Positions 13,601 to 60,215 of a stretch of DNA of 64,000 nucleotides are shown here, piece after piece. Made by a program: the position numbers and the translations under genes. This DNA is from Sialis fuliginosa (lineage: Eukaryota; Arthropoda; Insecta; Megaloptera; Sialidae). The notes under the pieces were generated by a model that worked only from the letters and a program-made list of their open reading frames with translations, did not search any database and was not told the origin of the DNA. Each line of letters starts with the position of its first letter. Position 1 is the first letter of the stretch. The DNA is taken from assembly GCA_961205875.1 (NCBI GenBank), contig OY540816.1:4288701-4352700 (forward strand). The letters run 5' to 3'.

Positions 13601-16600
13601 TCATTACCTTCTTAAAAAACGGTCACCCTATTGGAAACCAAAAATTATAATAACGATTATGTTTTATAATTATAAGAATTGGACTAATTGACAAAGAAGC
13701 CAAATGTGGAGGGTAAAGACAGATATTTGCGCGCTAAAAATCGACTTTCGATGGATTGATATTTGCGTATTGGCCATGTTTGGCAATACATAGCAAACTA
13801 AGCCAATATGACCATCTACACATTGGTATAATTGTACAAACATGACAAATATTTGTCTCGTATCACCATGTGCCGCCATTATATTAATGAAAATTGACAA
13901 AATAGAAAAACTATAGCTAAATTCCCAAAACTTTAGAACCATCCCTCTACACATGATTTTCCTATTGATGTTTAAATAAGCTAGTAACAAGTATTTGAAA
14001 ATTATTATTTATTTACAGGAATGTTTAACCATTGGCACCACTTCGGCAAATGTGCCCCAATTGCTAAAAAGGAATTATTCTACGTTTGGCCTTTTGGACT
14101 TTGTGCTTACCTGTGTGGGGTAGTGTTTATCGACCGCAGTAATAAAAAAGCTGCTCTTAAAACTTTAGAGACGACCACAGATCTGATGATAAATCATAAG
14201 GTATGACACGAATAACATGCTTTAATTTTATAAAAGTGAAACAAAATACAAATTTTTCATGTTTTTTGACAGTTAACGATACAAATTCATACTTTAATTT
14301 TTTTTACTAGTTGCACTTATGAATAACCATTTTAAATACTTACGTCATTTGAACTGTACGATACAACACGGACTTTAAAAATGAAAAAAGTGTGTTTCAT
14401 TTTTAACCTCCAATTTGGGGAAAAGTGAAACAGGTCTCTAATGGAAAATATTTCTCGAAAAATTAAAAGAAAAGTTACAAAGGTAACTTTGATTTATCTT
14501 CTTTGTGGCATATCAAAGTGAAATTGTAACTTTAATTAATATCTGAGCTATACAGAAAGTTATGTGCAAAGAATTAAAATTTAATTCACACGTTTTGACA
14601 TCGACTAACAGGGAAATCTGTAGGGGTGACACATCACTTATTAGGCGATCCATATTTTCAGGTCGCTTTAACAAACCTTTAATGATGATGTCAGTTTTTA
14701 TAATTATTCTATAAACAAATTAGTTTTTTAGTTGCAAGCTTGTTTCATTTTTACCCCATTTTTTTGGTGTTTCAAATTTACCCCGCTCGACCCTTTTTTT
14801 CAATATTTCATAACTAATAAATATAAATACTAAACTGATATTCCAACGTATTTAAAAAGAAATCAATAATTGTAGGTAATTACTAAACTAAAAATACACC
14901 TTAACCACAAAAATTTATGTCACTCGACACGTGTTTCGACTTCACAAGAAGTCCTCATCAGGAAGTATCTCAGCTTGGCGTGATCCTACAGACTCCAACT
15001 TTTTTTTTAAATATAGTTTCTATCATTAACTTTGAGACGATCAAATGCCCTAAGACCGTCGAGACCCCCTTCCCCTCTTATTAACAAATTAAAATTGATA
15101 AACTAACAAATAAGTTAATAGTTAATATCTCAGTATATCATCTCACACATTTTTTTAACGACTCTGATGAAAAAAATTCATAGAACTTAATTTATACTAG
15201 ACTACATAATGAATAAAATAAGCTCAGTTTGAACTCTCTACCACTAATAGAACCGGTGATATGTCGTCGTGAAATTGGGTCTCCGTACATCATAAGTATA
15301 TGTGAGCATTTTATAGGTCGTAATTTAACACATCAAAACTAAAATGATTGATAACAAATAAACATTGTGAGTTCATTTTTAGGGTTCCGAAGAAACCCTA
15401 TTAATCTCACTTTGTCGTCCGTCCCTCCTTTTCACTCAAAACCAAATAGCTCGTAAACTATATAAGCTAGAAACTTAAAATTTTTACTGAACATGTAAAA
15501 TGACACCCTCTATTAAAATATGTACAAATTTACTGAATAATAATTTTTCAGGGGGGGGCAATAAGGAGCTAAAGCTAGGTAAAAAAAATATTTTTTTTTA
15601 TACCAAGACATGTGGCACGTTAAAATGTATAACCAAACAAGCGGAATTTGACCCTTTTTCTATTTTTTTTTCTAAATCAAAAATGGTGCCTGTAGGGGGC
15701 TTTAAAGCAAATCCAAAAAAAAAAAACAAAAAAATTGTATACCAAGACGTGTGGCATGTCAAAATGTACATCTCAATTAGTAGAACATGACCATATTTTT
15801 TATTTGTTTTTCGAACTTAAAAATGTCGCCTGTAGGGGGCTAAAAGCAGTATTTTATTTCCCCCCCCCCTCTACAAATACTAAAGTTAACAATTTTAAAT
15901 TTTGGAATTATAGGGAGGGGTGTCATAGAATTTTTTTATTTTGATATCTAGGCAAGTGGGGTGTCAAAATATAGATCTCAATTAGTAGAACTTGACACTT
16001 TTATTTTTATATTTTTTCCTAACTTAGAAATACATTTAGTGGTTCCAAACATTCCACGTAGTACGTACTTCGGAACCCTTTTGGGATACACTCGTGTATA
16101 TCTTGCCCGAATTATTAATTTATTTTCTTTGTAATTTTATAGATAACAAAAATTACCTACAGTTTCGATGGATTTCGCGAAAAAAAAATTTAAGAAAAAT
16201 ATATAGATAAACATCAACTTTTAACTCTTGCTCTAAAATACCTTATACAATGTTTTCTGGGTTGGTGAATAAGGATTTGTTAATAAGCAGCTATCAAATA
16301 ATCGATTTTTCTTAAAAAAAATTAAAAATTAACATTGTTTATATTTAGCAATATTTTTTGATAAATTGGGTTTAATTAACAAAAAATTTAAAGATTAAGA
16401 AAAATGTTTACTCAAAAATTACAGCCTGTACACTGACTTGAACCAAAAAAGTCACTTATGCCACATTGTGCGCCGCCCCACTTGACCTGGCACCCCGGGC
16501 GGTCACCCTGCCCCCCCCCCCCTAAAACCAAAACTGGGCACAGGTTTTATTGTGGTTAAGGTGTTATATTATTAGTTTAAGTGAATTCTTTTTTTAATAA

Positions 16601-16964
16601 TAACACATTTTGTTTTCAGTACAATATCTGGATATTTCCTGAAGGAACAAGAAACTCCAAGCACGATGGGAATTTACTGGAGTTTAAGAAGGGGGCTTTC
16701 TTCACAGCCGTTAATGCCCAAGTGCCGATAGTGCCTGTAGTGTTTTCACCGTATTATTTCATCGATACAAAAACGAATTTTTTCGATTCGACTGGACGTA
16801 TTATTATTACAGCATTAGATCCTGTGCCAACTAAAGGGTTAACTGAAAAAGATATACCAGGACTAATGAAGACTGTGAGGAATAAAATGTCAGAAACATT
16901 GAAAGAAGTTCATAAAGAAGTTATTGAACATTTACCTGACGATTATCCAAATTGTGTAGAATAA
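7402..16964 (+). CDS. AGPAT: 1-acyl-sn-glycerol-3-phosphate acyltransferase, copy 1 (4 coding exons)
   Basis: The product should be an endoplasmic-reticulum membrane enzyme that acylates lysophosphatidic acid to phosphatidic acid (EC 2.3.1.51) in glycerolipid synthesis. The coding sequence joins 7402-7646, 8565-8698, 14019-14200 and 16620-16964, giving 301 residues; AGPATs are usually 260-300. All junctions are GT-AG and the frame stays open. Residues about 24-40 and 55-72 are hydrophobic and look like membrane segments. The four family motifs are present: NHQSTLD (118-124, catalytic His-Asp), GVVFIDR (160-166), FPEGTRN (193-199, phosphate binding) and VPIVPVVFS (222-230). An acceptor AG lies 10 bases before the ATG, so a non-coding first exon probably exists upstream. 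A mirror-image copy lies at 27039-36280. The family call is firm; the exact paralogue (alpha/beta type) and expression are not shown. Confidence 0.93.
7776..8412. mobile_element. Foldback element in AGPAT copy 1 intron 1
   Basis: Termini ATGTCCGGTATTATAAAGGA recur inverted at the right end, and internal repeats of the same phrase occur near 8048 and 8325. Arms are 7776-8045 and 8103-8412. It is absent from intron 1 of copy 2, and removing it would leave an intron of about 280 bp, close to the 331 bp there. It therefore entered after the duplication or was lost from copy 2. Confidence 0.7.
8565..8698 (+). CDS. AGPAT: AGPAT copy 1, coding exon 2 (motif I)
   Basis: The exon is 134 nt, between the acceptor TTTCAG and the donor GTCAGT. 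It completes codon 82 (TTA, Leu) and carries the catalytic NHQSTLD motif near its 3' end. Its last base starts codon 127 (GGA, Gly). It contains no ATG, so it is easily missed by frame scans. Only one residue differs from the copy at 35571-35704 (Ser108 here, Arg there). Confidence 0.9.
8735..8892 (-). repeat. Dispersed repeat fragment (GGCATGATGCC family)
   Basis: This stretch is the reverse complement of 44590-44765 and 50265-50430. It includes a small self-complementary GGCATGATGCC and the phrase GACACGT.AGATCATCAT on the opposite strand. Confidence 0.55.
8900..9166 (-). repeat. TGTCCGGAAACTCTTCGTGAG family repeat, split by the next element
   Basis: It matches 18680-18930, 56336-56547 and 57155-57320. 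The repeat resumes after 11069 (GATATGAC...), so the element at 9171-11065 was inserted into it. Confidence 0.6.
9835..10440 (+). repeat. Degenerate tandem array, about 125-bp unit
   Basis: The phrase CAACCCCTAA/GGGGTG recurs near 9838, 9965, 10088, 10236 and 10360, each followed by an AT-rich tract. About five diverged units lie inside the element above. Confidence 0.55.
10490..11030 (+). repeat. Tandem array, about 122-bp unit, about 4.5 copies
   Basis: The phrases CGCCATATT, ATCCGCCATTTT and GCGTCCCAATAAAACC repeat near 10606, 10729, 10850 and 10971. The units are much more alike than those of the neighbouring array. Confidence 0.75.
11400..11747 (-). repeat. Truncated hAT-like element ending TTCCGGTACACCCCTA
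   Basis: The right end TTCCGGTACACCCCTA equals that of the intact element at 56556-57604. Internal sequence also matches 18240-18400 in reverse. The left end is missing. Confidence 0.5.
11857..12773. mobile_element. Non-autonomous hAT element with perfect 8-bp target duplication
   Basis: ATTGATGG flanks both sides (11849-11856, 12774-12781). Termini are TAGGGATTGCAATCCC and ATCGGGATTGCAATCCCTA, each itself nearly palindromic. Subterminal copies of TCCCGGGAT lie at both ends. The length is 917 bp. The frames at 11995-12217 on the minus strand do not look like a transposase. Confidence 0.88.
12944..13430 (+). pseudogene. Internally deleted mariner transposon with fused transposase ends
   Basis: A mariner-like terminus (TACGAGGGATGTTTC...) begins near 12944. 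A frame at 13131-13427 encodes 98 residues. The N-terminal part has VYRWIDRFKNGRTSLEDDPR, typical of the mariner/SETMAR helix-turn-helix region. After about residue 68 it jumps to CIQLNGDYVEK, the usual C-terminal end of mariner transposases. The whole catalytic DD(D/E) domain between them is deleted, yet the frame stays open. The right inverted terminus was not found. It lies on the sense strand in AGPAT copy 1 intron 2. It cannot catalyse transposition; DNA binding is conceivable but unproven. Confidence 0.8.
13480..13630. repeat. Low-complexity A/C-rich tract
   Basis: Runs of C and A with a repeated CTTAGCACC-like phrase. No coding or structural signal is seen. Confidence 0.7.
14019..14200 (+). 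CDS. AGPAT: AGPAT copy 1, coding exon 3 (motif II)
   Basis: The exon is 182 nt, between the acceptor TTTACAG and the donor GTATGA. It encodes residues 127-187, including the acyltransferase core stretch and the GVVFIDR motif with its Arg. It ends on a codon boundary. Three residues differ from the minus-strand copy. Confidence 0.92.
14915..14980 (-). ncRNA. Hammerhead ribozyme motif (Penelope/retrozyme type)
   Basis: Read on the minus strand, CTGATGAG (14954-14961) is followed by a perfect 6-bp stem GACTTC/GAAGTC with a TTGT loop, then GAAAC (14933-14937). A minimal stem III CAC/GTG follows, then GTC at 14926-14928 as the expected cleavage triplet. This is the full conserved hammerhead core with the very short stem III seen in retroelement-borne ribozymes. 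Stem I pairing is weak. Established knowledge: Penelope-like elements of arthropods carry such motifs. It is antisense to AGPAT copy 1. Confidence 0.6.
15381..16081 (+). mobile_element. Repeat element with AGGGTTCCGAAG inverted ends
   Basis: Begins TTTTAGGGTTCCGAAG and ends CTTCGGAACCCTTTT. Similar copies lie at 63121-63860 (plus) and 34515-34910 (minus), with an end fragment near 23310-23345. The interior has T-rich tracts, GCCTGTAGGGGGCT phrases and a C-tract. The open frames 15500-15944 are repeat-derived. Confidence 0.6.
16465..16535. repeat. Small GC-rich repeat fragment
   Basis: GCCGCCCCACTTGACCTGGC followed by a GGCGGTCACC phrase and a C-tract. It resembles the CCCAGAGCAGTCGCCCAGCC block at 18955 and 56735. 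Confidence 0.35.
16620..16964 (+). CDS. AGPAT: AGPAT copy 1, coding exon 4 (motifs III and IV, stop)
   Basis: The exon follows the acceptor TTTTCAG at 16613-16619 and encodes residues 188-301 and a TAA stop. It starts YNIWIFPEGTRN (motif III), then VPIVPVVFS (motif IV), and ends in a charged C-terminal helix-like stretch. A Met codon at 16581 lies in the intron and is not the start. Confidence 0.93.
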   Translation, partial: YNIWIFPEGTRNSKHDGNLLEFKKGAFFTAVNAQVPIVPVVFSPYYFIDTKTNFFDSTGRIIITALDPVPTKGLTEKDIPGLMKTVRNKMSETLKEVHKEVIEHLPDDYPNCVE

Positions 16965-17081
16965 GACTATTTATTATTTATTTAAATACAAAATTAAATA
17001 TTTATATGTACCTACCTAAAATTTTATTTTTTATTTGTTTGCTTATTGTCAGTATTAAGATAACTGACGATCATAATTACC

Positions 17082-21272: not shown

Positions 21273-22765
21273 ATAGTATAGGAGCCAGCTGCAAAATGGG
21301 TGTAGATTTAACAACCGTCTGCCGTTGTGGTTTTTTTGAAGTACTCACTCAGACAAGCTCGGAAGATGAATCCGGTCCACCAGCTTGTGGGGATTTAATA
21401 GTTAGGGCCCACCAAAAATAAACAAAAAAAAATCACGTAACAACCGTTTGAATGAAACGGTTGCTTATAGTAGACCCCAATTAAAGATGTTTTGGATATA
21501 CGGCAGAAATTTTTGCGTAGGGGTTTAATTACAGGAGCCTCTCAAAATTTCGACCCAAAAAAATCAAATAACAACCGGACCAGACCTGGTGAAAAATGTT
21601 TATTTGGACATATACTTACATAAAAACATAATGGCAGAATTTTTTATGTAGGGACTTCGGTGCTATAAGGCCTACAAATGGCCAGAATTGGGCCCCAATC
21701 TTAAAAATGCTGTAAAATCTAAAATACCGAATGAAAATTTCTGCCGCGCGGTGCATGCCTTTGTTATGAATTATAAAATAGATATATACCCATGGCAGAA
21801 GTTTTTATTCATGCAGTTGCCCCTCCCAGCTCCCCCAAAAGGTAAATTTGGATTAGTAATAAAATGCACTAAAAAAATCATAACAAATAGGCCTATAGAG
21901 GCTTATAAACTTATAAAATGATAATATATTATTGTATTTAATGTTAGACACCCTCCGTGCCCCCCCTCGTACAATAATAAATTATCATTTTAAAAGTTCA
22001 AGCCATTATAGACCTAATGTAATAATTTTTTAGCGAATTTTATTACTAACCCAAATTTTCTTTTGGGGTTGAGGGGGGCCACGGGGTGTGTCTAACATTA
22101 AATACAATAATATATTATCATTTTATAAGTTTATAAGCCTCTATAGGCCTATTTGTTATGATTTTTTAGTGCATTTTATTACTAATCCAAATTTACCTTT
22201 TGGGGGAGCTGGGAGGGGCAACTGCATGAATAAAAACTTCTGCCATGGGTATATATCTATTTTATAGTTCATAACAAAGGTATACACCGCGCGGCAGAAA
22301 TTTTCATTCGGTATTTTAGATTTTACAGCATTTTTAAGATTAGGGCCCAATTCTGGCCCTTTGTAGGCCTTATGGCACCGAAGCCCCTACATAAAAAATT
22401 CTGCCATTATGTTTTTATGTAAGTATATGTCCAAATAAACATTTTGCACCAGGTCTGGTCCGGTTGTTATCTGATTTTTTTGAGTCGAAATTTTGAGAGG
22501 CCCCTGTAATTAAACCCCTACGCAAAAATTTCTGCCGTATATCCAAAATATCTTTAATTGGGGTCTACTATAAGCAACCGTTTCATTCAAACGGTTGTTA
22601 CGTGATTTTTTTTTGTTTATTTTTGGTGGGCCCTAACTATTAAATCCCCACAAGCTGGTGGACCGGATTCATCTTCCGAGCTTGTCTGAGTGAGTACTTC
22701 AAAAAAACCACAATGGCAGACGGTTGTTAAATCTACACCCATTTTGCAGCTGGCTCCTATACTAT
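21273..22765. mobile_element. Large foldback element, about 695-bp arms
   Basis: Left arm 21273-21965 and right arm 22071-22765 are near-perfect inverted copies, starting ATAGTATAGGAGCCAGCTGC, with about 100 bp between. The mirrored open frames at 21688-21921 (+) and 22156-22350 (-) have almost the same translation because of this symmetry; they resemble no known family. The centre (22019) is within about 20 bases of the midpoint between the stop codons of the two AGPAT copies. Confidence 0.8.
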
Positions 22766-23536: not shown

Positions 23537-24344
23537 TTAAAAATCGAAAAAAAAATTCCCCCCAAAAATATCAACTTTTGAAAATTTGATTTAAAAAAAA
23601 AACGAAATATCTCAAAAACTGTCATAGATAGCGTAAAAATACAAGGGATCCACTTTGTAGGAAAATGTATATTATTTATTTTAAAAAATATTTTGCTGCA
23701 CAAAACTTTTGTTTAAATATATTTTTTCTATTTATAAAATTTAACTGAAAATTTGGGGCACATGTCAACTCTGAATTTTAAAAATAAAAATATATGTTGT
23801 AGCTTAATCATTCCTGAGTATGTAGCACTTTGAAAATTTATGAACATATGAAAACTTTATGAAATATTAATTTTTTAGGTAACAACGCGCGAGTCTTAGC
23901 GCGCTTGCTTGACGTATCACTGCGCGACTGTGTTGGAACATTAAACATTTACTGCAGTGATACGTCCAAGCAAGCGCGCTAAGACTCGCGCGTTGTTACC
24001 TAAAAAATTAATATTTCATAAAGTTTTCATATGTTCATAAATTTTCAAAGTGCTACATACTCAGGAATGATTAAGCTACAACATATATTTTTATTTTTAA
24101 AATTCAGAGTTGACATGTGCCCCAAATTTTCAGTTAAATTTTATAAATAGAAAAAATATATTTAAACAAAAGTTTTGTGCAGCAAAATATTTTTTAAAAT
24201 AAATTATATACATTTTCGTACAAAGTGGATCCCTTGTATTTTTACGCTATCTTTGACAGTTTATGAGATATTTCGTTTTTTTTTTTAAAAGTCAAATTTT
24301 CAAAAGTCGATATTTTTGGGGGGAATTTTTTTTTCGATTTTTAA
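23537..24344. mobile_element. Near-perfect palindrome, about 390-bp arms and 30-base loop
   Basis: Arms 23537-23923 and 23954-24344 are inverted copies with a spacer of only 30 bases. Around the centre the GC-rich stretch AACAACGCGCGAGTCTTAGC and its complement stand out from AT-rich flanks. The frame at 23521-23703 is a chance frame. Confidence 0.85.
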
Positions 24345-26988: not shown

Positions 26989-27038
26989 CTTAAGAAAATT
27001 AATAAATCAATGTTGTCATGTTGCAGGTAAATTAATTC

Positions 27039-27383
27039 TTATTCTACACAATTTGGATAATCGTCAGGTAAATGTTCAGTAACTTCTTTATGGACTTTTT
27101 TCAATGTTTCTGACATTTTATTCCTCACAGTCTTCATTAGATCTGGTATATCTTTTTCAGTTAATCCTTTAGTTGGCACAGGATCTAATGCTGTAATAAT
27201 AATACGTCCAGGCGAATCGAAAAAATGCGATTTTGTATCGATGAAATAATACGGTGAAAACACTACAGGCACTATCGGCACTTGGGCATTAACGGCTGTG
27301 AAGAAAGCCCCCTTCTTAAACTCCAGTAAATTCCCATCGTGCTTGGTGTTTCTTGTTCCTTCAGGAAATATCCAAATATTGTA
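27039..27383 (-). CDS. AGPAT: AGPAT copy 2, coding exon 4 (motifs III and IV, stop)
   Basis: The exon is 345 nt after the acceptor TTTTAG, starting YNIWIFPEGTRN and ending at TAA. Seven residues differ from copy 1. Sequence after the stop is not alignable with that after copy 1, so the duplication boundary or later insertions lie very close to the stop. Confidence 0.92.
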   Translation of the reverse strand, partial: YNIWIFPEGTRNTKHDGNLLEFKKGAFFTAVNAQVPIVPVVFSPYYFIDTKSHFFDSPGRIIITALDPVPTKGLTEKDIPDLMKTVRNKMSETLKKVHKEVTEHLPDDYPNCVE

Positions 27384-30300
27384 CTAAAACAAAATATTTT
27401 GATTAATAAAAAAAACCTACATTAATTGATTTTTTAAAATTCGTTGAATATCCGTTTAGTATTTTTATATTTATTACTTTGGAAATATTGATACGACGAA
27501 ATTTACAGCACAACTTAATAATTTGGTATTACATGCTTTTTTACGTGCTTTTTTCCCCGTGTGCTAGTTGTTAGTTGTAGAACTGCCGTGCCGGTAGCTG
27601 CTGACATTACGTTTTGTCACTGCAAACCATGTTCAAAAAGTTCCTCCCCCCCCCCCCCCCCCAAATGCTTATTTTTAGTTAATTTTATGTGCAGTTGTTT
27701 GATATTCGTTACCTTCGCATATTTTTAACATTTTCGTTAAACAACAATTAAATATTCAAATTTCCCGCGTTTAGGTTAGGTTAGGTTAAAAACATGCTAT
27801 AATAATATACAAGTTAACTGTCCTTGATTAGGTTGGTTAGTTTCTGTTAGGTTAGGTTAGGTTAACTAAACAAGGACAGTTAAACTAACCTAACAGAAAC
27901 GATCCGACCTAAACAAGGCAGGGCCGTAACTAGTGGCTCGGGGGCCCCGGGGCAAGAGGTGACCAAGGGGCCCCCAGATATGCAAAAAATAAAAATTGAA
28001 GACCTTTTTTTGGATCATAGCTTGCAAATTTTACATTTGTTACTGATTTTTATTTGAATGACTTTTTTTGCTTGCCAGCTAGAATTTTACACTTCTTAGT
28101 AATTTTAATGGATAATAAGTGTAAAATTGAAGTTTATAAGCCGAAAAAAGGTCATTAAAATCAAAATTAGTAATAAGTAAATCACGTTTTCAAGTTAGCA
28201 CCAAATATATTTTTTTAAATCTTCAATTTATTTATTTTTTCTTGCTCACTCCAATTTTTAGGCTGCTGCAAGAGCCCCCTAGCCTCGGGGGCCCCGGGGC
28301 ACTGCCCCGGCTGCCCCGGTGGTAGTTACGGCCCTGAAACAAGGACAGTTAACCTAACCTAACCTAACAGAAACTAACCAACCTAAACAAGGACAGTTAA
28401 CTTGTATATTATTATAGCATGTTTTTAACCTAACCTAACTTAAACGCGGGTAATTTGAATAATTAATTGTTGTTTAACAAAAATGTTAAAAATCTGCAAA
28501 AGTAATAACTATCAAACGATAGACTTTTACTATCAAACATTTTCAAATAAAAATGAATCTTGTAATCCCAAAATGAACTCAATAATCAAATGTGGGGAGG
28601 GGCTAACTTTTTCATAACATTTAATTAATACAAATTAATTAAACTAATAAAACTATCAAATGACAAAATTAGACTATCAAACACTATCAAACGAATATCA
28701 AACGATTGCTCATAAAATTAACTAAAAATATGCATTAGGGCTAGAATTTTAAAAACAAGAAACGCGGGAAATTTGAATATTTAATTGTTGTTTAACAAAA
28801 ATGTTAAAAATCTGCTATGGTAACAACTATCAAAAAGGAATCTTGTAAACCTAGAATAAATTCAATAATCAAATGTGGGGGGGGGCTAACTTTTTCATAA
28901 AATTTATTTAATTAATACTAATTAACTATCCGTCCGTGTGTGTGTCTGTCCCCCTGAATCCTTGTCACACGCATAACTCATGAACCACAGAACCGATATT
29001 GTTGAAACTTGGTCGGATGGTTGGGTCTGGCTTGAGGACGGTCCCATTTCAAAATCATCAAAATCGTGAGTAAGGAGGAGGGGTGACATCCCAAAATATT
29101 AATTTTTTCAAGATATCTCAAGAACGACACATTGTCATGTTACGTGAAAATTTTATAGAATATTTTTTGTAGAGCTTTCAATTCCCTATAATACGGGTCT
29201 ACAACGTTTGTTGTAAAATATTCCCTTACAAAGATTTATCTAAATTTATTTTAAAATTAGTGTTTTGTTTTTCTAAATTGATATAATTTGCTTGAACATA
29301 TTAAATGTCATTTTGGAGTTTTAAATGTCATTTTGACGTTTGCATAAATTTAGATTTAGATTGAATTTGTGAAAAAATTAAAAATATACGAAAAAATAAT
29401 CAGGTGCGTCTTAAGAAACATTTCGAACTAATATTTTTTAGTAAAATTGTATAAAAATGAAATGGTTAACCAATTCTAAGCAATTTATCTGAGCATCGGT
29501 TTTTATTTAAATTGTTCAATGATTAATTATCTTTGGTGAATTTAGCACGAGGAAGCACTGTGTATTTACTTGGAAGATGTTTTTATTTTAAACACCATTA
29601 GTTTGTCATAAAAAGAAATAACCTATACGGCGTGGACGCTGTACGAATGCACGTTATAGTTAGGCGGCTATTACACTATCAAATAAATATGTCAAAAATC
29701 TTTGACAAATATTTGATCATATTTCTTTGATAGTGTAATAGCCGCCTTAGATTTATTTTAAAATAAAACGGCCAAGTGCGTGTTGGGCACGCACTTGATA
29801 GGTTTCCGTAGTCATTACGATTTATAAACAAGAATTATTTCAACGGACGCTCTGATAACGACATTTAAATGCAAATATATCGTGACTGAAGGGTTAAAAT
29901 CAAAAGGTCATATAACATTTTTTGTTGCATTTTAGGAGACCTATCTAAAGATACCCCACTCAATGGGGTAAGTGAAAAAAAATTTGAGAGCAATTTTCAG
30001 TCTATGGGAGGGGGTCCAAAATAATTTTGACAGTGTTCATTATAATTTTCAGTGAAAGTACTAATTCAAAGTTACATTCTGAATTTTTTTCAGATTTTTT
30101 GAATAGATAGTTTAGAAATTAGGGTGAGGGGGGACGCTCTGATAACGACATTTAAATGCAAATATATCGTGACTGAAGGGTTAAAATCAAAAGATCATTT
30201 AACATTTTTTGTTGCATTTTAGGAGACCTATCCAATGACATCACATTCCATGGGATATGTGAAAAAAAAATTGTGAGTTCATTTTTCAGTCTATAGGAGG

Positions 30301-45469: not shown

Positions 45470-45638
45470 TATGAATATTAGTTTTCTAATATCCTAATGT
45501 CAATAATATAACACACATTTTTAGAAAAACTAATTTGACAATTTGAATTAAATTGCATTTGTTTTTATAATAACTAATCTGGCAATTTAAATTTAATTGC
45601 GTTTGTTTCCAAGGCAATATGAATTGTAGACTTATTTA
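45470..45638 (-). repeat. Left part of repeat E, split by a Helitron
   Basis: The reverse complement of 59765-59880 and 60120-60215 (GTTTGTTTCCAAGGCAA..., TTCTAATGTCAAAA-like). It continues at 49380 beyond the Helitron, so it is the host copy. Confidence 0.65.
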
Positions 45639-46991
45639 TCTACTATATATAATGAAGTGCCCTGACTGACTGATAATCATTTTTTTGACCATTTCCACTC
45701 ATCGGAGAACCTTGAAATTTGGTATATACATTCCTTGGGGGTAAAAAATAACAACTAGTGGGCCTTTTTTGAAAAAGTTCATAAATGGGGTGACAAGGGG
45801 CCCCCAATTTTTCAAAAAAAAAGTTAGAATTTTTTTATTATTTTTTCTATATTCCTTGGGTGATATAATGTAAAGTTCAAATTTCAGATTTAAAAAAAAT
45901 GAAAAAAAAGGAAAAAAAAAGTTTTGATGTAAAAAAGTATCAAAACGAAAACCGATATTAGATTTTTTTAATTTTTTTTAAATACTTTGGTTAATTGACA
46001 ACCATGAACCCGTGTCTGATTTTTGAAAAAGATATGTTAAAGAGGAGAAAATAAACAAAATACGTTTACATATAATGCGCTTTAAGCATTTACTAAATTA
46101 ATTGCAAATGTCGTAACTATGGATACATTATATTTTATTGATTATTTTTAAAAATTTTAAATGTCAGTGGCCATTTAAAATTTTGAAGTGAACAATAAAA
46201 TATAAACAAAAAAGAAATATAAAGAGCATAACGAACGAAAAAATATGCACAACTCTAATGTAATAAATAATTTAAATTTTCATAAATAAATTTGACAAAA
46301 AAATTGAAGACAAACAATTACAGCATTCGGACACAATTCGACCAACATTCGGCGATAGATATGTGTTCCCGGTACAAATAAAAATTAAGTAGGTATATAA
46401 TGACATTTTTTAAATCTTAAGTCATTGAATTATCAATATTTTTACTTTCATAGGTATAGGTATTTTATTATATTTATTTGTAATCATAAATATCAGAAGA
46501 ATTTATATAATTTCAAATTAACATTGTAATTTTAAATGATATTATTTTAATTGTTGTTTGAAACTGTATATCTGTCATCTTTACCCAATGTACTAACCTA
46601 AAATGTACATTTACAAAATTAAAACAAGATGTTGATTTATTGCAAATTGTTACGAAAGCTTCATTCAATTGACAAGACCTATATTTGATTGTAATTAATT
46701 AATTAATTGTACAAAGGGTGTACGAGTATCTACAAGAGCTAATAATGTATTTATATAGACACATTGATGAATTTTTGAAAGACACGAGCAGAAAAACCAA
46801 AAATGAAATTATTTTTAATATTCATAAAATGTTCAAATCATGTAAGTACATGATGTAATACAATACATGTACCAGAAGTCATAAAATAATTTTTTGTCGT
46901 TGTCATATCAGAAACAAATGTCATAATATGTATTTAGTATGCAATATATTTTCATACGACAAGAGTTGAAAACGCATCGTAAACAAATATA

Positions 46992-47280
46992 CAGGTAATC
47001 CTCGACTTATAATTGTCTTTGTCTCTTTCTTACATGCACATATTACATAAATGAAACAAACAGTTCCGGGAATTTCCCAAAAATGTAATTTATTATTATT
47101 TATGTAGATATTTTTGGGAACCCGCAACTGTTTGTTATGTATAGAAAATGCGATTCGCTTCACATCAAGGAAAACGTCCAAAGCAAAAATATGTACATAT
47201 TGTACGTGTTAACTTACAACTTATTCTATTTACGATCGATGTTTAGAAACCTATCTCGGTTGTAAGTCGAGGAATACCTG
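46992..47280. mobile_element. 289-bp Tc/mariner-type MITE inside the left Helitron
   Basis: Termini CAGGTAATCCTCGACTTATA and TAAGTCGAGGAATACCTG, with TA flanks at 46990-46991 and 47281-47282. The CAGG...CTCGACTTA style resembles Tigger/pogo MITEs. A copy of the same length sits at 52765-53053. Confidence 0.75.
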
Positions 47281-48274
47281 TACTACGATATATAACGTAT
47301 GTCTTATCAGTTTAAGCGTAAAAAATATCAAAGTTAATATTCAATGTTTTTAAATGCTGCGAGAAGTTCAAACATGCTTGACTGATTTAAATTTACTTTT
47401 TTCCTTATTTTATATATTACTTACAAAATAACCAAGACGTTCCATTAAAATTTCAGGATTTGTGAAGTGTTCTGTCGTAGGAAAAGTTTAGGAAGCATTG
47501 TTCTACATCATACTTCAATATCAACCAAATTGAGTTATTGAGGGTAAAAAATATATTGAAAAAACCTCATAGAGAAACCATATTTAGTTTGTGCACTAAA
47601 GTTTTAACAGGTACGATTTTTCTAAAATATCTTAAAATTAATAAAATTAAAATTGATAAAAGCCCAGCTCTAATGAATAAATAAGAAAGCACTCCGTCAC
47701 AGCACTATATTATTCCGTCGCGGGAAAGTACCTACCATATAGGCCAGTCAGGATCCACTCAGGGCTAGCTACGTCACTGGTTACGATACTATATTATTGT
47801 TGGTTACGATATTTCATAAAACAGATATCGGTGCTTAGAATACATTGTCTGGAGGAATACGATAAAAGTTTTAACAGATTTTTTAGCGGAAAAGAGAATT
47901 TTGTCGCTTATATATGAGATTTTTATAATCGATAACTCAATTTCGCAAAAAGTGTATCTTACGATACTTTGCCTTGGAGGGGACGATATAGAAATAATTT
48001 AACCAGGTATGTTATAATTTAGGTATATAAAAACATAGTACCTAGCCATGGAATACGGAATTTTATAATTTACGGTTTCAATATTTTATTTTATTAATTT
48101 AGGTTACTATGATTATGTCTCTTTAAAATATTTTGTCGAACAATTAAATGATTTTTGACACATATTAACAATTAAATATTTTGAAATGCCTATATTGATT
48201 GAAAATTTAAATATGAAGAAACATTTCACTTCTATGAAAGGTAAAATATCGAAATTAATTATTAGGTTTGGTGT

Positions 48275-48350
48275 AAATTTTTCGAAACACAATTTTTCGA
48301 ATCACAATTTTTTGAATCAAAATTCTTCGAATGAACAATTTTTCGAAAAA
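48275..48350 (+). repeat. Short tandem array of TTTTTCGAATCACAA units
   Basis: About four to five units of about 15 bases built on TTTCGAA.CACAA, repeated in the partner Helitron at 51695-51770. Confidence 0.65.
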
Positions 48351-49379
48351 TTTAAGTTTTATTGTTCAAATTTTAATTAGTTAATAAAATATTAAGTAAA
48401 GTAATATTTGGACATTTTACGATATCCATACTAATATTATAAATGCGAAAGTGTGTTTGTCTGTCTGTTTTCTGTTTGTTACCTTTTCACGGCTAAACCG
48501 CTTTACCGATTTTGATGAAATTTGGCAGTGAGATAGCTTGCATCCCGAGGACGGACATAGGCTATTTCGTATCTTAAAAATTCAACCCCTAAGAAATTGC
48601 AAGGGGGTGGAAATTTTTTATTTTTTTTTAGTAATTATTATTTTACCCCCCGATACATATGAAGGGTTGTAAGTGGTTTTATTCGATCCGGCGGGAAAAA
48701 TACCACGGGGGCGTAGGTTTTAGGGGGCAAAACAACCCTCTATCTCGCATAGGAGCCGAGATATTTACGATTTTGTATAATGAAAGAAAACTAAAAATAA
48801 GAAAAATTTAATATTTTACCCCCTGTCACATATGAAGAGTTGTAATTGATTACATTCGATCTGGCGGGCAAAAATACTACGGAAGAGGGATTATTAGGGG
48901 GACAAAACAACCCCTTATCTTACATAGGAGTCGCGACTTATATTATAAATGCGAAAGTGTATCTCTCAGTCTGTCTATTTGTTACCTGTTCACGACCAAA
49001 CTGCTTTACCGATTTTGATGAAATTTGGCAGTGAGATAGCTTACATCCCGAGGACGGATTAAGGCTATTTCGTATCTCGAAAATTTAACCCCTAAGGAAT
49101 TGCAAGGGAGAGGAAAATTTTTAATTTTTTTTAGTAATTAATATTTTACCCGTTACATATGAAGGGTTGTAAGTGGTTTTATTCGATCCAGCGGGAAAAA
49201 TACCACGGGGGCGGGGGTTTTAGGGCGGAAAAACCCCTCTATCTCGCATAGGAGCCGACACATTTACGATTTTGTATAATTAAAGAAAACTAAAAATAAG
49301 ATAAATTTAATATTTTACCCCCTGTCACATATGAAGGGTTTCGAAATCCACGCGAGCGAAGTCGCGGGTAGCAGCTAGT

Positions 49380-49850
49380 TAATATTTAAAATTCAAATTT
49401 TGAGGGTGGTTTTCAACTTTCACCCCTTCTATGGCTGTTTAGGCAAGTATAACAAAAAAAATACTGAAATACATTTTTCATTATTTGTATTATAGAATAT
49501 TTATGCTAAGTTTTAAGAAAATTAGACCAAAAAAAACTGTACACCCCTTTTTACCCCCTTAGGGGTTGAATTTCGAAAAATCCTTTCTTTCAGATCATAT
49601 TCACGTCAAGACGCTTCGATTGGCACCCCAACGAAGTCAATAGCTTTTTTCATTTGCGAGATTTCGTGAACGTAAAAAATGACACGCACATACGTACGTA
49701 CGTACACACACACACACACACAGACATCTTTCTAAAAATAGTGTAAATATACTATAGTGATCTCAAAACATATAAATATGTTGACATTTTTATTTTGATT
49801 TTCGGACCGATTACAATAACTTCCAGTTGGGAAGTTAATAATTAATTATA
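49380..49850 (-). repeat. Right part of repeat E, after the Helitron
   Basis: ATATTTAAAATTCAAATTTT followed by TTTCACCCCTTCTATGGCTG, matching the reverse complement of 60005-60095. It carries a CGTACGTACGTACACACACA microsatellite near 49690-49725. Confidence 0.6.
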
Positions 49851-50155
49851 TGCTACATGAATTCTAGGTGGTGTATAGTTTAAGTTACCACACCAAAACG
49901 CTGAAATAAATCTATAAAAATTAAGCCATAAATGATTATTCAAATTAATATACAGGAAGGTCCGGTTTGGGATACAGATATTTTAATATCTGATTGCTTG
50001 GCTCATTGTGAGTAAACAATGTATTTATTTTTATATTAAAAGCAAGATTAATATAATTATTGTAAAAATAAAAACACAAATTACAGCAATCTGCCATGTT
50101 AGATGAAACACCATTCAGAGTGGATGACGTCACGCCTAAGTAAACATAATTTTTG

Positions 50156-50430
50156 TTTCATTAATATCAGCACTATTTATAAATTATTATGTGGTTTTAA
50201 ATCATCAATTTGCTCAGTTTTGTGTTAACAAAACTAAAACCGAGAAACGTTAGCGATACGTGACACCTGCAAGCGTTTTGGCGTCAAATTCAAAATTAGT
50301 TTTTAAAGGGTCAATTTTAAAGATTAAACCTTTATTTTTTGTAGAAATAAGTATATTTTGGGTAATAGGAGACACGTAAGATCATCATAGAACAGTTTTT
50401 TTTAAATTAGGCATCATACCTATTGTCGCA
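50156..50430 (+). repeat. Second copy of the TTTGCTCAGTTTTGTGTTA repeat
   Basis: A direct, diverged copy of 44420-44765, lying in the spacer between the two Helitrons. Confidence 0.6.
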
Positions 50431-50665
50431 GTTATCGACTTAAGTATATCACTTTAATTAATTACACGGATATCTGAGTATACTTTAGAACTATCTTTAG
50501 TTAGAACTATATTATACAAAAATAAGTTTTAAAGTTAATAAATAATTTCTGTTACAAAATAAAAATTCGACGAAGAAATGATTGTGTCTGTACGAGTACT
50601 TTATAAAAGTGAAAATACTTTAAAAACGAAATAATATATTTTAATTAAACTAATTTTTATAACTA

Positions 50666-53600
50666 ACTAGCTGCTACCCGCGACTTCGCTCGCGTGGATT
50701 TCGAAACCCTTCATATGTGACAGGGGGTAAAATATTAAATTTATCTTATTTTTAGTTTTCTTTAATTATACAAAATCGTAAATGTGTCGGCTCCTATGCG
50801 AGATAGAGGGGTTTTTCCGCCCTAAAACCCCCGCCCCCGTGGTATTTTTCCCGCTGGATCGAATAAAACCACTTACAACCCTTCATATGTAACGGGTAAA
50901 ATATTAATTACTAAAAAAAAATTAAAAATTTTCCTCTCCCTTGCAATTCCTTAGGGGTTGAATTTTCGAAATACGAAATAGCCTTAATCCGTCCTCGGGA
51001 TGTAAGCCATCTCACTGCCAAATTTCATCAAAATCGGTAAAGCAGTTTAGTCGTGAACAGGTAACAAATAGACAGACTGAGAGATACACTTTCGCATTTA
51101 TAATATAAGTCGCGACTCCTATGTAAGATAAGGGGTTGTTTTGTCCCCCTAATAATCCCTCTTCCGTAGTATTTTTGCCCGCCAGATCGAATGTAATCAA
51201 TTACAACTCTTCATATGTGACAGGGGGTAAAATATAAAATTTTTCTTATTTTTAGTTTTCTTTCATTATACAAAATCGTAAATATCTCGGCTCCTATGCG
51301 AGATAGAGGGTTGTTTTGCCCCCTAAAACCTACGCCCCCGTGGTATTTTTCCCGCCGGATCGAATAAAACCACTTACAACCCTTCATATGTATCGGGGGG
51401 TAAAATAATAATTACTAAAAAAAAATAAAAAATTTCCACCCCCTTGCAATTTCTTAGGGGTTGAATTTTTAAGATACGAAATAGCCTATGTCCGTCCTCG
51501 GGATGCAAGCTATCTCACTGCCAAATTTCATCAAAATCGGTAAAGCGGTTTAGCCGTGAAAAGGTAACAAACATAAAACAGACAGACAAACACACTTTCG
51601 CATTTATAATATTAGTATGGATATCGTAAAATGTCCAAATATTACTTTACTTAATATTTTATTAACTAATTAAAATTTAAACAATAAAACTTAAATTTTT
51701 CGAAAAATTGTTCATTCGAAGAATTTTGATTCAAAAAATTGTGATTCGAAAAATTGTGTTTCGAAAAATTTACACCAAACCTAATAATTAATTTCGATAT
51801 TTTACCTTTCATAGAAGTGAAATGTTTCTTCATATTTAAATTTTCAATCAATATAGGCATTTCAAAATATTTAATTGTTAATATGTGTCAAAAATCATTT
51901 AATTGTTCGACAAAATATTTTAAAGAGACATAATCATAGTAACCTAAATTAATAAAATAAAATATTGAAACCGTAAATTATAAAATTCCGTATTCCATGG
52001 CTAGGTACTATGTTTTTATATACCTAAATTATAACATACCTGGTTAAATTATTTCTATATCGTCCCCTCCAAGGCAAAGTATCGTAAGATACACTTTTTG
52101 CGAAATTGAGTTATCGATTCTAAAAATCTCATATATAAGCGACAAAATTCTCTTTTCCGCTAAAAAATCTGTTAAAACTTTTATCGTATTCCTCCAGACA
52201 ATGTATTCTAAGCACCGATATCTGTTTATGAAATATCGTAACCAACAATAATATAGTATCGTAACCAGTGACGTAGCTAGCCCTGAGTGGATCCTGACTG
52301 GCCTATATGGTAGGTACTTTACCGCGACGGAATAATATAGTGCTGTGACGGAGTGCTTTCTTATTTATTCATTAGAGCTGGGCTTTTATCAATTTTAATT
52401 TTATTAATTTTAAGATATTTTAGAAAAATCGTACCTGTTAAAACTTTATTGCACAAACTAAATATGGTTTCTCTATGAGGTTTTTTCAATATATTTTTTA
52501 CCCTCAATAACTCAATTTGGTTGATATTGAAGTATGATGTAGAACAGTGCTTCCTAAACTTTTCCTACGACAGAACACTTCACAAATCCTGAAATTTTAA
52601 TGGAACGTCTTGGTTATTTTGTAAGTAATATATAAAATAAGGAAAAAAGTAAATTTAAATCAGTCAAGCATGTTTGAACTTCTCGCAGCATTTAAAAACA
52701 TTGAATATTAACTTTGATATTTTTTACGCTTAAACTGATAAGACATACGTTATATATCGTAGTACAGGTATTCCTCGACTTACAACCGAGATAGGTTTCT
52801 AAACATCGATCGTAAATAGAATAAGTTGTAAGTTAACACGTACAATATGTACATATTTTTGCTTTGGACGTTTTCCTTGATGTGAAGCGAATCGCATTTT
52901 CTATACATAACAAACAGTTGCGGGTTCCCAAAAATATCTACATAAATAATAATAAATTACATTTTTGGGAAATTCCCGGAACTGTTTGTTTCATTTATGT
53001 AATATGTGCATGTAAGAAAGAGACAAAGACAATTATAAGTCGAGGATTACCTGTATATTTGTTTACGATGCGTTTTCAACTCTTGTCGTATGAAAATATA
53101 TTGCATACTAAATACATATTATGACATTTGTTTCTGATATGACAACGACAAAAAATTATTTTATGACTTCTGGTACATGTATTGTATTACATCATGTACT
53201 TACATGATTTGAACATTTTATGAATATTAAAAATAATTTCATTTTTGGTTTTTCTGCTCGTGTCTTTCAAAAATTCATCAATGTGTCTATATAAATACAT
53301 TATTAGCTCTTGTAGATACTCGTACACCCTTTGTACAATTAATTAATTAATTACAATCAAATATAGGTCTTGTCAATTGAATGAAGCTTTCGTAACAATT
53401 TGCAATAAATCAACATCTTGTTTTAATTTTGTAAATGTACATTTTAGGTTAAAGATGACAGATATACATTTTCAAACAACAATTAAAATAATGTCATTTA
53501 AAATTACAATGTTAATTTGAAATTATATAAATTCTTCTGATATTTATGATTACAAATAAATATAATAAAATACCTATAACTATGAAAGTAAAAATATTGA

Positions 53601-54391
53601 TAATTCAATGACTTAAGATTTAAAAAATGTCATTATATACCTACTTAATTTTTATTTGTACCGGGAACACATATCTATCGCCGAATGTTGGTCGAATTGT
53701 GTCCGAATGCTGTAATTGTTTGTCTTCAATTTTTTTGTCAAATTTATTTATGAAAATTTAAATTATTTATTACATTAGAGTTGTGCATATTTTTTCGTTC
53801 GTTATGTTCTTTATATTTCTTTTTTGTTATATTTTATTGTTCACTTCAAAATTTTAAATGGCCACTGACATTTAAAATTTTTAAAAATAATCAATAAAAT
53901 ATAATGTATCCATAGTTACGACATTTGCAATTAATTTAGTAAATGCTTAAAGCGCATTATATGTAAACGTATTTTGTTTATTTTCTCCTCTTTAACATAT
54001 CTTTTTCAAAAATCAGACACGGGTTCATGGTTGCCAATTAACCAAAGTATTTGAAAAAAATTAAAAAAATCTAATATCGGTTTTCGTTTTGATACTTTTT
54101 TACATCAAAACTTTTTTTTTCCTTTTTTTTTTCATTTTTTTTTAATCTGAAATTTGAACCTTACATTATATCACCCAAGGAATATAAAAAAAATAATAAA
54201 AAAATTCTAACTTTTTTTTTGAAAAATTGGGGGCCCCTTGTCACCCCATTTATGAACTTTTTCAAAAAAGGCCCACTAGTTGTTATTTTTTACCCCCAAG
54301 GAATATATATACCAAATTTCAAGATTCTCCGATGAGTGGAAATGGTCAAAAAAATGATTATCAGTCAGGGCACTTCGTTATATATAGTAGA
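50666..54391 (-). mobile_element. Non-autonomous Helitron, right member of an inverted pair
   Basis: On the minus strand it starts TCTACTATATATAACGAAGT at 54391 and ends GCAGCTAGT at 50666, again between A and T. It is almost identical to 45639-49379 along its full length: the 86-residue conceptual frame at 52864-53124 is the same as its mirror, and two other mirrored frames differ by one residue each. The flanks differ from those of the left member, so the pair looks like two insertions rather than one palindrome. Confidence 0.8.
52765..53053. mobile_element. 289-bp Tc/mariner-type MITE inside the right Helitron
   Basis: The same element as 46992-47280 at the matching position, with TA flanks. 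It was therefore already inside the Helitron before the two copies separated. Confidence 0.75.
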
Positions 54392-54428
54392 TACGCCTAG
54401 AAAATATAGGTAGATACGAGTACATATA

Positions 54429-55774
54429 CAGGGTGTCCCAATGTTCAATATTTCATTTATTATAATAAATGGAAGAAAACTTTAAATACAAAAGTTGTTA
54501 GGTTAGACAAGCCGCATATTTTAAAAATAGTTATATTTATATAGGGTGTCCCATAAGTACGTTACAAATCAAAGTTATGTTTTTTTTAAATACAATGCGT
54601 ATATTATGATTGATAATCTAAAAGCATTTATTTTTCTGGATATTTTGATATAAGCATGTGTAGGTTTATACTGAGCGGTTTAGAAATTATGACCATTTTT
54701 GTTAGAAAATTGGGTTATTTTCAACACCTTGTAATTTTCTAATTACAACAAAAAAACTTTTGTTTTCTGCTAAAAATAATTTTGGCATATGCTCTATTAT
54801 TGCGATATTACATCAAACATTTACAAAATTGTATTCTTTGTACAGGATGTATCAAAACTCTGAACTTAACTTTTTTCAAAATTTTCAAATGGAACACCCT
54901 ATATATTTTCACATTTTTGAATTGCCTGTTCAATTCTAAATACATTTTATAAACTATGTTCTATACCTAAATCCAGCCGTTAAAAAGTTTATTTGAAGAT
55001 TTTTTAAATCTTAACATGTTTTATAAATACAATACAACTTTATTATTATCCATAAAACAATTTGCTAGAACTTACAAACTTTAACAACATGAAAATCTAG
55101 AAATTAAATAAACAAAATGATACACAAAAGTTAATTTTTTTTGTTCAAAATGTCCACCAACGGCGTTAAGACCTATCATTCAAATTCAATTAAATCTTCA
55201 AATAACTTTTTAACGGCTGGATTTAGGTATAGAACATAGTTTTTAAAATGTATTTAGAATTGAACAGGCAATTCGAAAATGTAAAAATATATAGGGTGTT
55301 CCATTTGAAAATTTTGAAAAAAGTTAAGTTCAGAGTTTTGATACACCCTGTACAAAGAATACAATTTTGTAAATGTCTGATGCAATATCGCAATAATAGA
55401 GCATATGCCAAAATTATTTTTAGCAGAAAACAAAAGTTTTTTTGTTGTAATTAGAAAATTACAAGGTGTTGAAAATAACCCAATTTTCTTACAAAAATGG
55501 TCATAATTTCTAAACCGCTCAGTATAAACCTACACATGCTTATATCAAAATATCCAGAAAAATAAATGCTTTTAGATTATCAATCAAAAATATACGCATT
55601 GTATTTAAAAAAACATAACTTTGATTTGTAACGCACTTATGGGACACCTATATAAATATAACTATTTTTAAAATATGCGGCTTGTCTAACCTAACAACTT
55701 TTGTATTTAAAGTTTTCTTCCATTTGTTATAATAAATGAAATATTGAACTTTGACACAGTCTTGGGACACCCTG
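54429..55774. mobile_element. Foldback element with CAGGGTGTCCCA termini and TA duplication
   Basis: Arms 54429-55009 and 55191-55774 are inverted. TA flanks at 54427-54428 and 55775-55776. Internal copies of a TATATAGGGTGT.CCA phrase occur near 54540 and 55290, suggesting layered or tandem termini. The frames 55223-55454 are chance frames. No transposase. Confidence 0.75.
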
Positions 55775-55797
55775 TATAATTATTCTTCACCTGTATG

Positions 55798-58759: not shown

Positions 58760-59755
58760 TATTATTTAAAATTCAAATTTTAATTGTTTTTTTCACCCCT
58801 TTAATGTCTGTTTGAGCACGTACAAATAATAAATGTCCCTTAGATTCAATTGAACTGCAAATGTACCAAATCTTATCAAAATTAGTGAGATAATACTCGC
58901 AACGTTCACTTTTTAGACGAAAAAAGTTACAAAATTTCGAATATTTCCAAAACCCCTAATCCGATTAGCACCAAAATCAATAGGTCTGGAGTACTTACTG
59001 AGACAAACATTTTCCCTAAAAATAATTCAGATCGGTGCATTTTTACAGTAGTTATCGTGAACGAAACAAAATTCTACACCCAGACACACAGACACACGCA
59101 CAGCCGCCATACGGAAATTAACTTTTCTTTACGTTTTGAAGTTAGTACAATCAGAATTTGTTATTTTCTCGGACACGATTTTTCGATGGTATTACATTAC
59201 TTCCATTTCTTTCAGAACATGGAAGTAAAAATACTTATTTAAAAATTTTCATAAACTATTTTACTTCCATGTTCTGAAAGAAATGGAAGTATTGTAATAC
59301 CATCGAAAAATCGTGTCCGAGAAAATGACAAATTCTGATTGTACTAACTTCAAAACTTAAAGAAAAGTTAATTTCCGCATGGCGGCTGTGCGTGTGTCTG
59401 TGTGTCCGTGTGTCTGTGTGTCTGTGCGGATGTAGAATTTTCTTTCGTTCACGATAACTACTGTAAAAATGCACCGATCTGAATTATTTTTGGGGAAAAT
59501 GTTTGTCTCAGTGAGTACTCCAGACCTATTAATTTTGGTGCAAATCGGATTAGGGATTTTGGAAATATTTGAAATTTTCTTACTATTATAGTCTAAGACG
59601 TGAATATTGCGAGTATTATCTCACTAATTTTGATAAGACTTTGTACATTTGCAGTTCCATTGAACTTAAGGGACATTTTTTTTTCATACGTGCCTAAAAA
59701 GCTATTGAAGGGGTGAAAACCATCCTCAAAATTTCAAATTTTAAATACTAATTAC
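58760..59755. repeat. Repeat E, inverted pair, about 475-bp arms with 26-base loop
   Basis: Arms 58760-59235 and 59262-59755 are inverted. They share ATCGGTGCATTTTTACAGTA, CACACAGACACACGCACAGC and TTACTTCCATGTTCTGAAAG. The frames 59057-59242 (+) and 59256-59474 (-) are mirror images of the same sequence. Confidence 0.75.
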
Positions 59756-59764
59756 GACGTCATT

Positions 59765-60215
59765 ACTTCATGTTGCCTTGGAAACAAATGCAACCAAATT
59801 TAAATTGCCAAATTAGTTGTTCTGCGAATGTTTATTATGTTTTTGACATTAGGACATTAGAAAATTAATATTTATATATTTAAATTCTAATCGGATTAGG
59901 GGTTTTGGAAATATTTGCAATTTTGTAACTTTTTTCGTCTTAAAAGTGAATATTGCGAGTATTATCTCACTAATTTTGATAAGATTTGGTACATTTGCAG
60001 TTCAATGGAATCTAAGGGACATTTATTATTTGTACGTGCCTAAACAGCCATTAAAGGGGTGAAACACACACTTAAAATTTGAATTTTAAATACTAATATG
60101 TCATTAATTCATGTTTTCTTGGAAACAAATGCAACTAAATTCAAATTGTCAAATTAGTTTTTCTACGAATGTGTTTTATGTTTTTGACATTAGAAAACTA
60201 ATATTTATATACAAA
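59765..60215 (+). repeat. Direct duplication of the outer part of repeat E
   Basis: About 59883-60215 repeats 59545-59880: GGATTAGGG.TTTTGGAAATA, GCGAGTATTATCTCACTAAT, GGAAACAAATGCAAC.AAATT. Related, inverted pieces flank the left Helitron. Confidence 0.6.

Follow-up and report, generated by a model that had tools for sequence, protein, structure and literature searches.

Chimeric, non-autonomous Helitrons in a tail-to-tail pair of Sialis fuliginosa, probably independent insertions of a high-copy family

Canonical Helitrons are described as closing with CTRR, with a palindrome of 16-20 nt about 11 nt from the end (PMC4067079). In bats, Helraiser and Helibat begin with TC, finish with a 3' hairpin and CTAG and use an AT target, and their 3' ends are reported to have been diversified by bypass and by insertion beside other Helitrons (PMC4778049). 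The silkworm account describes bursts of families without coding copies and two Helitrons combining into a new one, and suggests cross-mobilisation by autonomous copies (PMC3789558). Hel-2 of Lepidoptera, whose description covers a 250-bp consensus, is non-autonomous, with TC and CTAG ends, a 3' hairpin and flanking A and T (PMC4344730). For Helitron_mc2 of maize, an element with several 3' termini, a chimera formed from nested Helitrons has been proposed (PMC3288121). Here we describe an inverted pair of 3.7-kb Helitrons, arms A and B, from the megalopteran Sialis fuliginosa. The pair lies in a stretch of 64,000 nt (contig OY540816.1, positions 4,288,701 to 4,352,700, forward strand), hereafter the window, in which positions are counted unless another contig is named.

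With a probability of about 0.9, each arm is a separate insertion of a single non-autonomous canonical Helitron of high copy number, a chimera that was amplified, and their tail-to-tail arrangement is a chance neighbourhood. The family has most likely expanded recently, and the interest lies in the system rather than in the local event. In their ends and target the arms are like Helraiser and Helibat and, going by its published description, like Hel-2, while the silkworm families as described resemble them in their bursts without coding copies and in the combination of two Helitrons. Compared with the bat elements as described, the foreign 3' end here belongs to a lineage that has itself amplified (329 junctions), and only the 5' end is common to the arms and their likely partner. 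The path set out for Helitron_mc2 is hypothesised for one element, whereas one fusion junction recurs here in hundreds of copies. Chimeric Helitrons and tandem Helitrons are already known, and fusions of this kind appear in the silkworm, maize and bat accounts (PMC3789558, PMC3288121, PMC4778049). The pair is laid out as follows.

45639-49378, plus strand: arm A, a complete, chimeric, non-autonomous Helitron (TC...CTAG) between A at 45638 and T at 49379, with paralogous empty sites.
50667-54391, minus strand: arm B, a second complete copy, without 12 nt and 4 nt present in arm A.
49379-50666, no strand: the spacer separating the 3' ends, with both target Ts counted in.

On alignment, 3700 of 3744 columns are identical between the arms. 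The 23 substitutions fall in 3723 ungapped columns, and there are six indel events, the largest being the 12-nt gap in arm B. A repeat search of the window found the arms independently as six blocks, 96-100% complementary. They stand tail to tail, 1288 bp from CTAG end to CTAG end with both target Ts counted, and the base after CTAG is the target T in each (49379 for arm A, the complement of 50666 for arm B). A foldback element (54425-55778; ~590-bp arms at 95.6%) starts 34 bp beyond the 5' end of arm B. The arms are alike from TC up to CTAGT and not beyond, where their flanks differ. An earlier note, made from the letters of the window, had described such a pair, almost identical, 1.29 kb apart, opposite in orientation and unlike in its flanks, and comparison of arms and flanks bears it out. 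The same note had named identical flanks as the sign of an assembly duplication. Given unlike flanks and variants peculiar to each arm (among 35 aligned copies, three substitutions are private to arm A and five to arm B), assembly duplication of the arms appears unlikely.

The first ~470 bp of the spacer are part of a dispersed repeat into which arm A inserted. In a search for this host repeat, the 40 best of 7001 candidates were scored and three copies elsewhere, on contigs C4, C8 and C1, were compared, together with two in the window.

59660-60210, minus strand: another two copies of the host repeat, both diverged and free of the Helitron.

All five copies run through the left and right flanks of arm A without the Helitron. 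Those on C8 and C1 are ungapped at the junction, where they read A then T, and they match the flanks of arm A at 80/84 and 93/99 positions on the left and at 87/94 and 93/100 on the right. Thus arm A is, judged from its empty sites, a TC...CTAG insertion whose entry precisely between A and T duplicated no target sequence. Weaker witnesses are the C4 copy, in which an additional base stands two positions ahead of the junction, and the two window copies, which are ~69-78% similar and differ in length near the junction. These sites also bear on a larger event, since a short-spacer inverted pair is the shape left by inverted duplication of a larger segment or by an assembly fold-back artefact. However, such an event agrees poorly with a likeness that ends at TC and CTAGT, with private variants in each arm and with an arm A that sits exactly in a dispersed repeat uninterrupted elsewhere. 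Segmental or assembly duplication was rejected on the flanks, the private variants and the empty sites of arm A, and its probability appears close to nil.

The family was sought in 392 Mb of the genome, in 20 contigs. With the first 1 kb of arm A as query, the 40 best of 825 candidates were scored and gave 40 long matches, besides another 40 short matches to an inverted repeat inside the element. The long matches comprise arm A, arm B and 38 others in 36 loci. Both ends are present in 37 of the 40; one of the remainder is split by a nested insertion (in locus L035), and two are incomplete within the stretch retrieved (L038 and L042). The latter may be interrupted rather than truncated, because the composite junction reappears several kb downstream. 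All 37 copies with both ends start with TC and end with CTAGT, and the base before TC is A in 33 and, in the other four, the G of CTAG. Genome-wide, there are 537 5' termini (at most 2 mismatches) and 329 junctions between cargo and 3' module (at most 3 mismatches), counts that depend on these limits and for which reversed controls gave 0. Further copies, which the earlier note had proposed seeking, are therefore abundant. When a 1025-bp cargo query was used, all 40 matches scored, of 2736 candidates, stood at 100% after rounding. The recent activity that had been read from the pair is upheld by L026/L027 and L031/L033, which differ by one substitution within each pair, the partners lying on different contigs. 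L045 and L046, also on different contigs, carry the same ~850-bp nested insertion at element position 871-878 with an 8-bp duplication, so a copy with this insertion has probably itself transposed.

Three further features describe the composition of the arms.

45639-46040, plus strand: 5' module of arm A (end approximate), common to Rep-helicase Helitrons on contigs C9 and C12.
48425-49378, plus strand: 3' module of arm A, apparently a second Helitron type, starting TCCATACTAATATTATAAATGCG right after an A.
50667-51621, minus strand: 3' module of arm B, the same module as in arm A.

The 3' module of arm A supplies the 3' terminus of the element and contains an internal repeat of ~500 nt at ~90%. 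Its start at 48425, A followed by TCCATACTAATATTATAAATGCG, resembles a second Helitron 5' end, a motif known from insect repeats, and a second Helitron-like stretch runs from there to the CTAG closing the whole element. In every one of the 37 copies with both ends, the BLAST alignment continues through this fusion point. Other termini occur nearby in the family. Unit c in L035/L047, a relative that has diverged but keeps this 5' end, has the terminus ..AACACCGGGTCCAGCGCGCTAG, and a Helitron beside L041 ends in the similar ..AACACCGGGCCAATGCGCTAG. Upstream of L040, a neighbour has 109 nt at 90% to the 3' end of unit c, followed by ~450 bp up to the arms' type of terminus, as though a native end had been bypassed. 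Given these other termini, the arms are chimeras: their 5' end is of one Helitron type, whereas the final ~950 bp, 3' terminus included, come from a different one. The composite is seen in all 37 copies with both ends. This foreign 3' end is a feature absent from the earlier description of the pair.

A search of the genome with the PF14214 profile gave 30 matches from 34 candidates, the two best in uninterrupted frames of 1675 amino acids (aa; C9) and 1660 aa (C12). The C9 frame, the one of the two that was scanned, contains Helitron_like_N, PIF1 and, below its cut-off, OTU, and no endonuclease family was listed in this Pfam scan. A partner endonuclease, subterminal inverted repeats and T-rich sites are traits of Helentrons and DINE-1, and the A^T sites of the present family argue against that affiliation. 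Both Rep-helicase elements have a TC terminus preceded by A (C9:1080003 and C12:956185), and their flanks differ. The C9 element is identical to arm A at 372 of 382 positions in the first 390 alignment columns, and at 184 of 295 thereafter. Comparison of C9 with C12 covered three stretches, in which 99.9% of 2101, 98.7% of 3591 (C12 being 45 nt shorter) and 99.9% of 3929 columns are identical; 1264 bp between the last two were left out for C12. A Rep-helicase partner with the same ends, as looked for in the earlier note, was thus found for the 5' end but not for the 3' end, where these elements read ..ATGTAATTGTAA.

By their shared 5' end, the C9/C12 elements are likely the partner of the arms. 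A protein of this type would nick the 5' end common to the arms, then peel off and circularise a strand as far as the borrowed 3' terminator, and the circle would be inserted at A^T sites anywhere in the genome. We infer from sequence that this protein mobilises the arms. On another contig, C3:36036353-36050669, four Helitron Rep matches lie in exact mirror symmetry. The inner pair, 36039380-36039808 (minus) with 36047214-36047642 (plus), is in 1987-aa frames, and the outer pair is 36036353-36036457 (minus) with 36050565-36050669 (plus). This arrangement is either an inverted duplication of very recent origin or a fold-back of the assembly.

The relation of the two arms was examined in 35 aligned copies, L045 and L046 being left out of the 37 with both ends. 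These copies differ pairwise by 0.71% on average, which understates the divergence of the family because the sample was ranked by closeness to arm A. Divergence is 0.37% in columns 1000-2780, against 0.93% in the 5' part and 1.12% in the 3' part, as if the ends exchanged sequence with other families. From the closeness of the arms the earlier note had also suggested, as a possibility, local rolling-circle reinsertion. Under such a reading one arm would have been copied from the other and have landed 1.29 kb off in opposite orientation. That closeness and the 3700 identical columns speak for it, and sister status of A and B is compatible with the approximately unbiased (AU) test. However, by distance arm B ranks 14th of 34 for arm A and arm A ranks 8th of 34 for arm B: 13 of the 33 other copies are nearer to A than B is, and 7 are nearer to B than A is. 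The copy nearest to arm A among the 34 compared is L011 on contig C11, with 7 substitutions in 3740, and the clade of A and L011 has a bootstrap value of 99. Variants carried by at most 6 of the 35 copies include none common to arms A and B; two rare variants are shared by A and L011, and three by B and L044. The 12-nt deletion of arm B is also present in L040, L041, L043 and L044. Local reinsertion as the cause of the pair was rejected on the distances, the rare variants and the A and L011 clade, and is very unlikely, with the AU result leaving formal exclusion short.

How far chance can account for the pair was estimated under uniform placement, which predicts 0.24 tail-to-tail pairs with a spacer of at most 1.3 kb if there are 537 copies, and 0.09 if there are 329. 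Adding head-to-head pairs doubles both values. On contig C1, 84 exact 5' ends give one opposite-strand pair within 9 kb (5' to 5'), with 0.66 expected. With a copy number of 329-537, one tail-to-tail pair is therefore unremarkable, and one such pair in the genome needs no special mechanism. The same estimate bears on the idea that the pair persists as a putative source of hairpin RNA, with 3.7-kb arms and a 1.3-kb loop, silencing the family. The arms are indeed long, nearly perfect inverted repeats, which might yield double-stranded RNA as the earlier note suggested, but a pair of this kind is not improbable under random placement by itself, and this role appears extremely unlikely.

Several points weigh against independent insertion as set out above. 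The expected number of pairs is below 1, an expectation that assumes uniform placement without clustering, and the empty-site comparison covers arm A alone and not arm B. The 37 copies were picked by closeness to the first 1 kb of arm A, and the nearest relatives of arm B may lie outside this sample. A tree constrained to unite A and B as sisters survives the AU test at the 5% level (p = 0.064), so that the independence of the arms rests on distances, shared variants and the A and L011 clade. The four-gamete test is failed by 516 of 1653 informative site pairs, and shared variants cluster in the first 650 and last 500 alignment columns. Thus, sequence seems to pass between copies (or mutations to recur), and any one tree can describe them only approximately. 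Lastly, the likeness of C9 and C12 stops at their 3' end before T, in a terminus that is neither CTAG nor the arms' own, a boundary based on two copies.

The composite 3' end is also found joined directly to this 5' end, in 38 exact CTAG|TC joints and one more with a joint mismatch (control 0). On contig C1, four same-strand pairs lie 3.4-3.9 kb apart, compared with 0.035 expected. The exact joints would fit rolling-circle movement; head-to-tail CTAG-TC joints are described for Helraiser circles (PMC4778049), and tandem Helitrons are described in bats and silkworm (PMC4067079). Insertion at a 5' edge and concatemer formation can both yield such joints, the former because A|TC is itself an A^T site. 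Neighbours at the joints are alike in some cases (L032, 97.9% over 3208 columns and 800/800 bp; L035, 512/515) and unlike in others. The latter include L040 and L041 with their neighbours, and b|c in L035, where 85% likeness over 965 columns gives way to mostly dissimilar sequence. Unlike neighbours favour insertion at an existing 5' edge for those joints. At L035, a block of two units (b and c) sits in an A^T site of a third copy. More tentatively, the family might be modular, with a ~400-bp 5' module that is swapped among unlike Helitrons and is required by the transposase, interchangeable 3' terminators, and insertion that prefers the 5' edges of existing Helitrons, at which an A^T target is formed anew by the A of the flank and the T of TC. 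This would explain the 38 exact joints, including those between unlike neighbours, without concatemers, but we regard it as doubtful.

The remaining features of the arms concern their ends and nested insertion.

49348-49368, plus strand: 3' hairpin of arm A, 21 nt, directly before the last 10 nt, TAGCAGCTAG.
46990-47282, plus strand: insertion in arm A resembling a miniature inverted-repeat transposable element (MITE), edged on each side by TA, its inverted ends 23 nt long.
52763-53055, minus strand: the same MITE-like insertion in arm B, its limits projected from arm A.

The canonical Helitron ends are present throughout, with TC and CTAG in all 37 copies and, in arm A, the 21-nt hairpin followed by 10 nt. 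The 60-nt stretch with this hairpin folds at -9 kcal/mol (z -1.71), and 8 of 200 shuffles are at least as stable, a modest stability for the hairpin. The TC starts, hairpin plus CTAGT ends and A/T sites that had been noticed in both arms were found again, as was the shared nested MITE, 46995-47284 recurring in arm B at 100% (blastn). Neither arm has a stop-to-stop frame longer than 106 aa, and a Pfam scan of two of the longest frames in the arms gave no match. By these frames the arms are classed as non-autonomous copies, and the lack of a Rep-helicase is compatible with canonical Helitron membership. An Rfam scan of the window gave 0 matches, and searches with the exact terminus patterns gave 0 matches among viral contigs (5' and 3') and among collected genome contigs (5').

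Other inverted repeats occur in the window. An inverted 378-nt pair (16589-16966 and 27037-27414), 95% complementary and 10 kb apart, carries a PF01553 acyltransferase frame in each member and is perhaps a duplicated lipid acyltransferase gene. Long, near-perfect inverted repeats lie at 21273-22765 and 23590-24288, with 604-nt and 322-nt arms at 98%.

A striking inverted pair can therefore arise by chance from a high-copy transposon. Beyond the pair, the genome offers a natural series of Helitrons, comprising hundreds of chimeras, Rep-helicase relatives that have the 5' end in common but another 3' end, and dozens of exact head-to-tail joints. This series bears on whether the 5' end alone sets mobility, and on the origin of tandem Helitrons.

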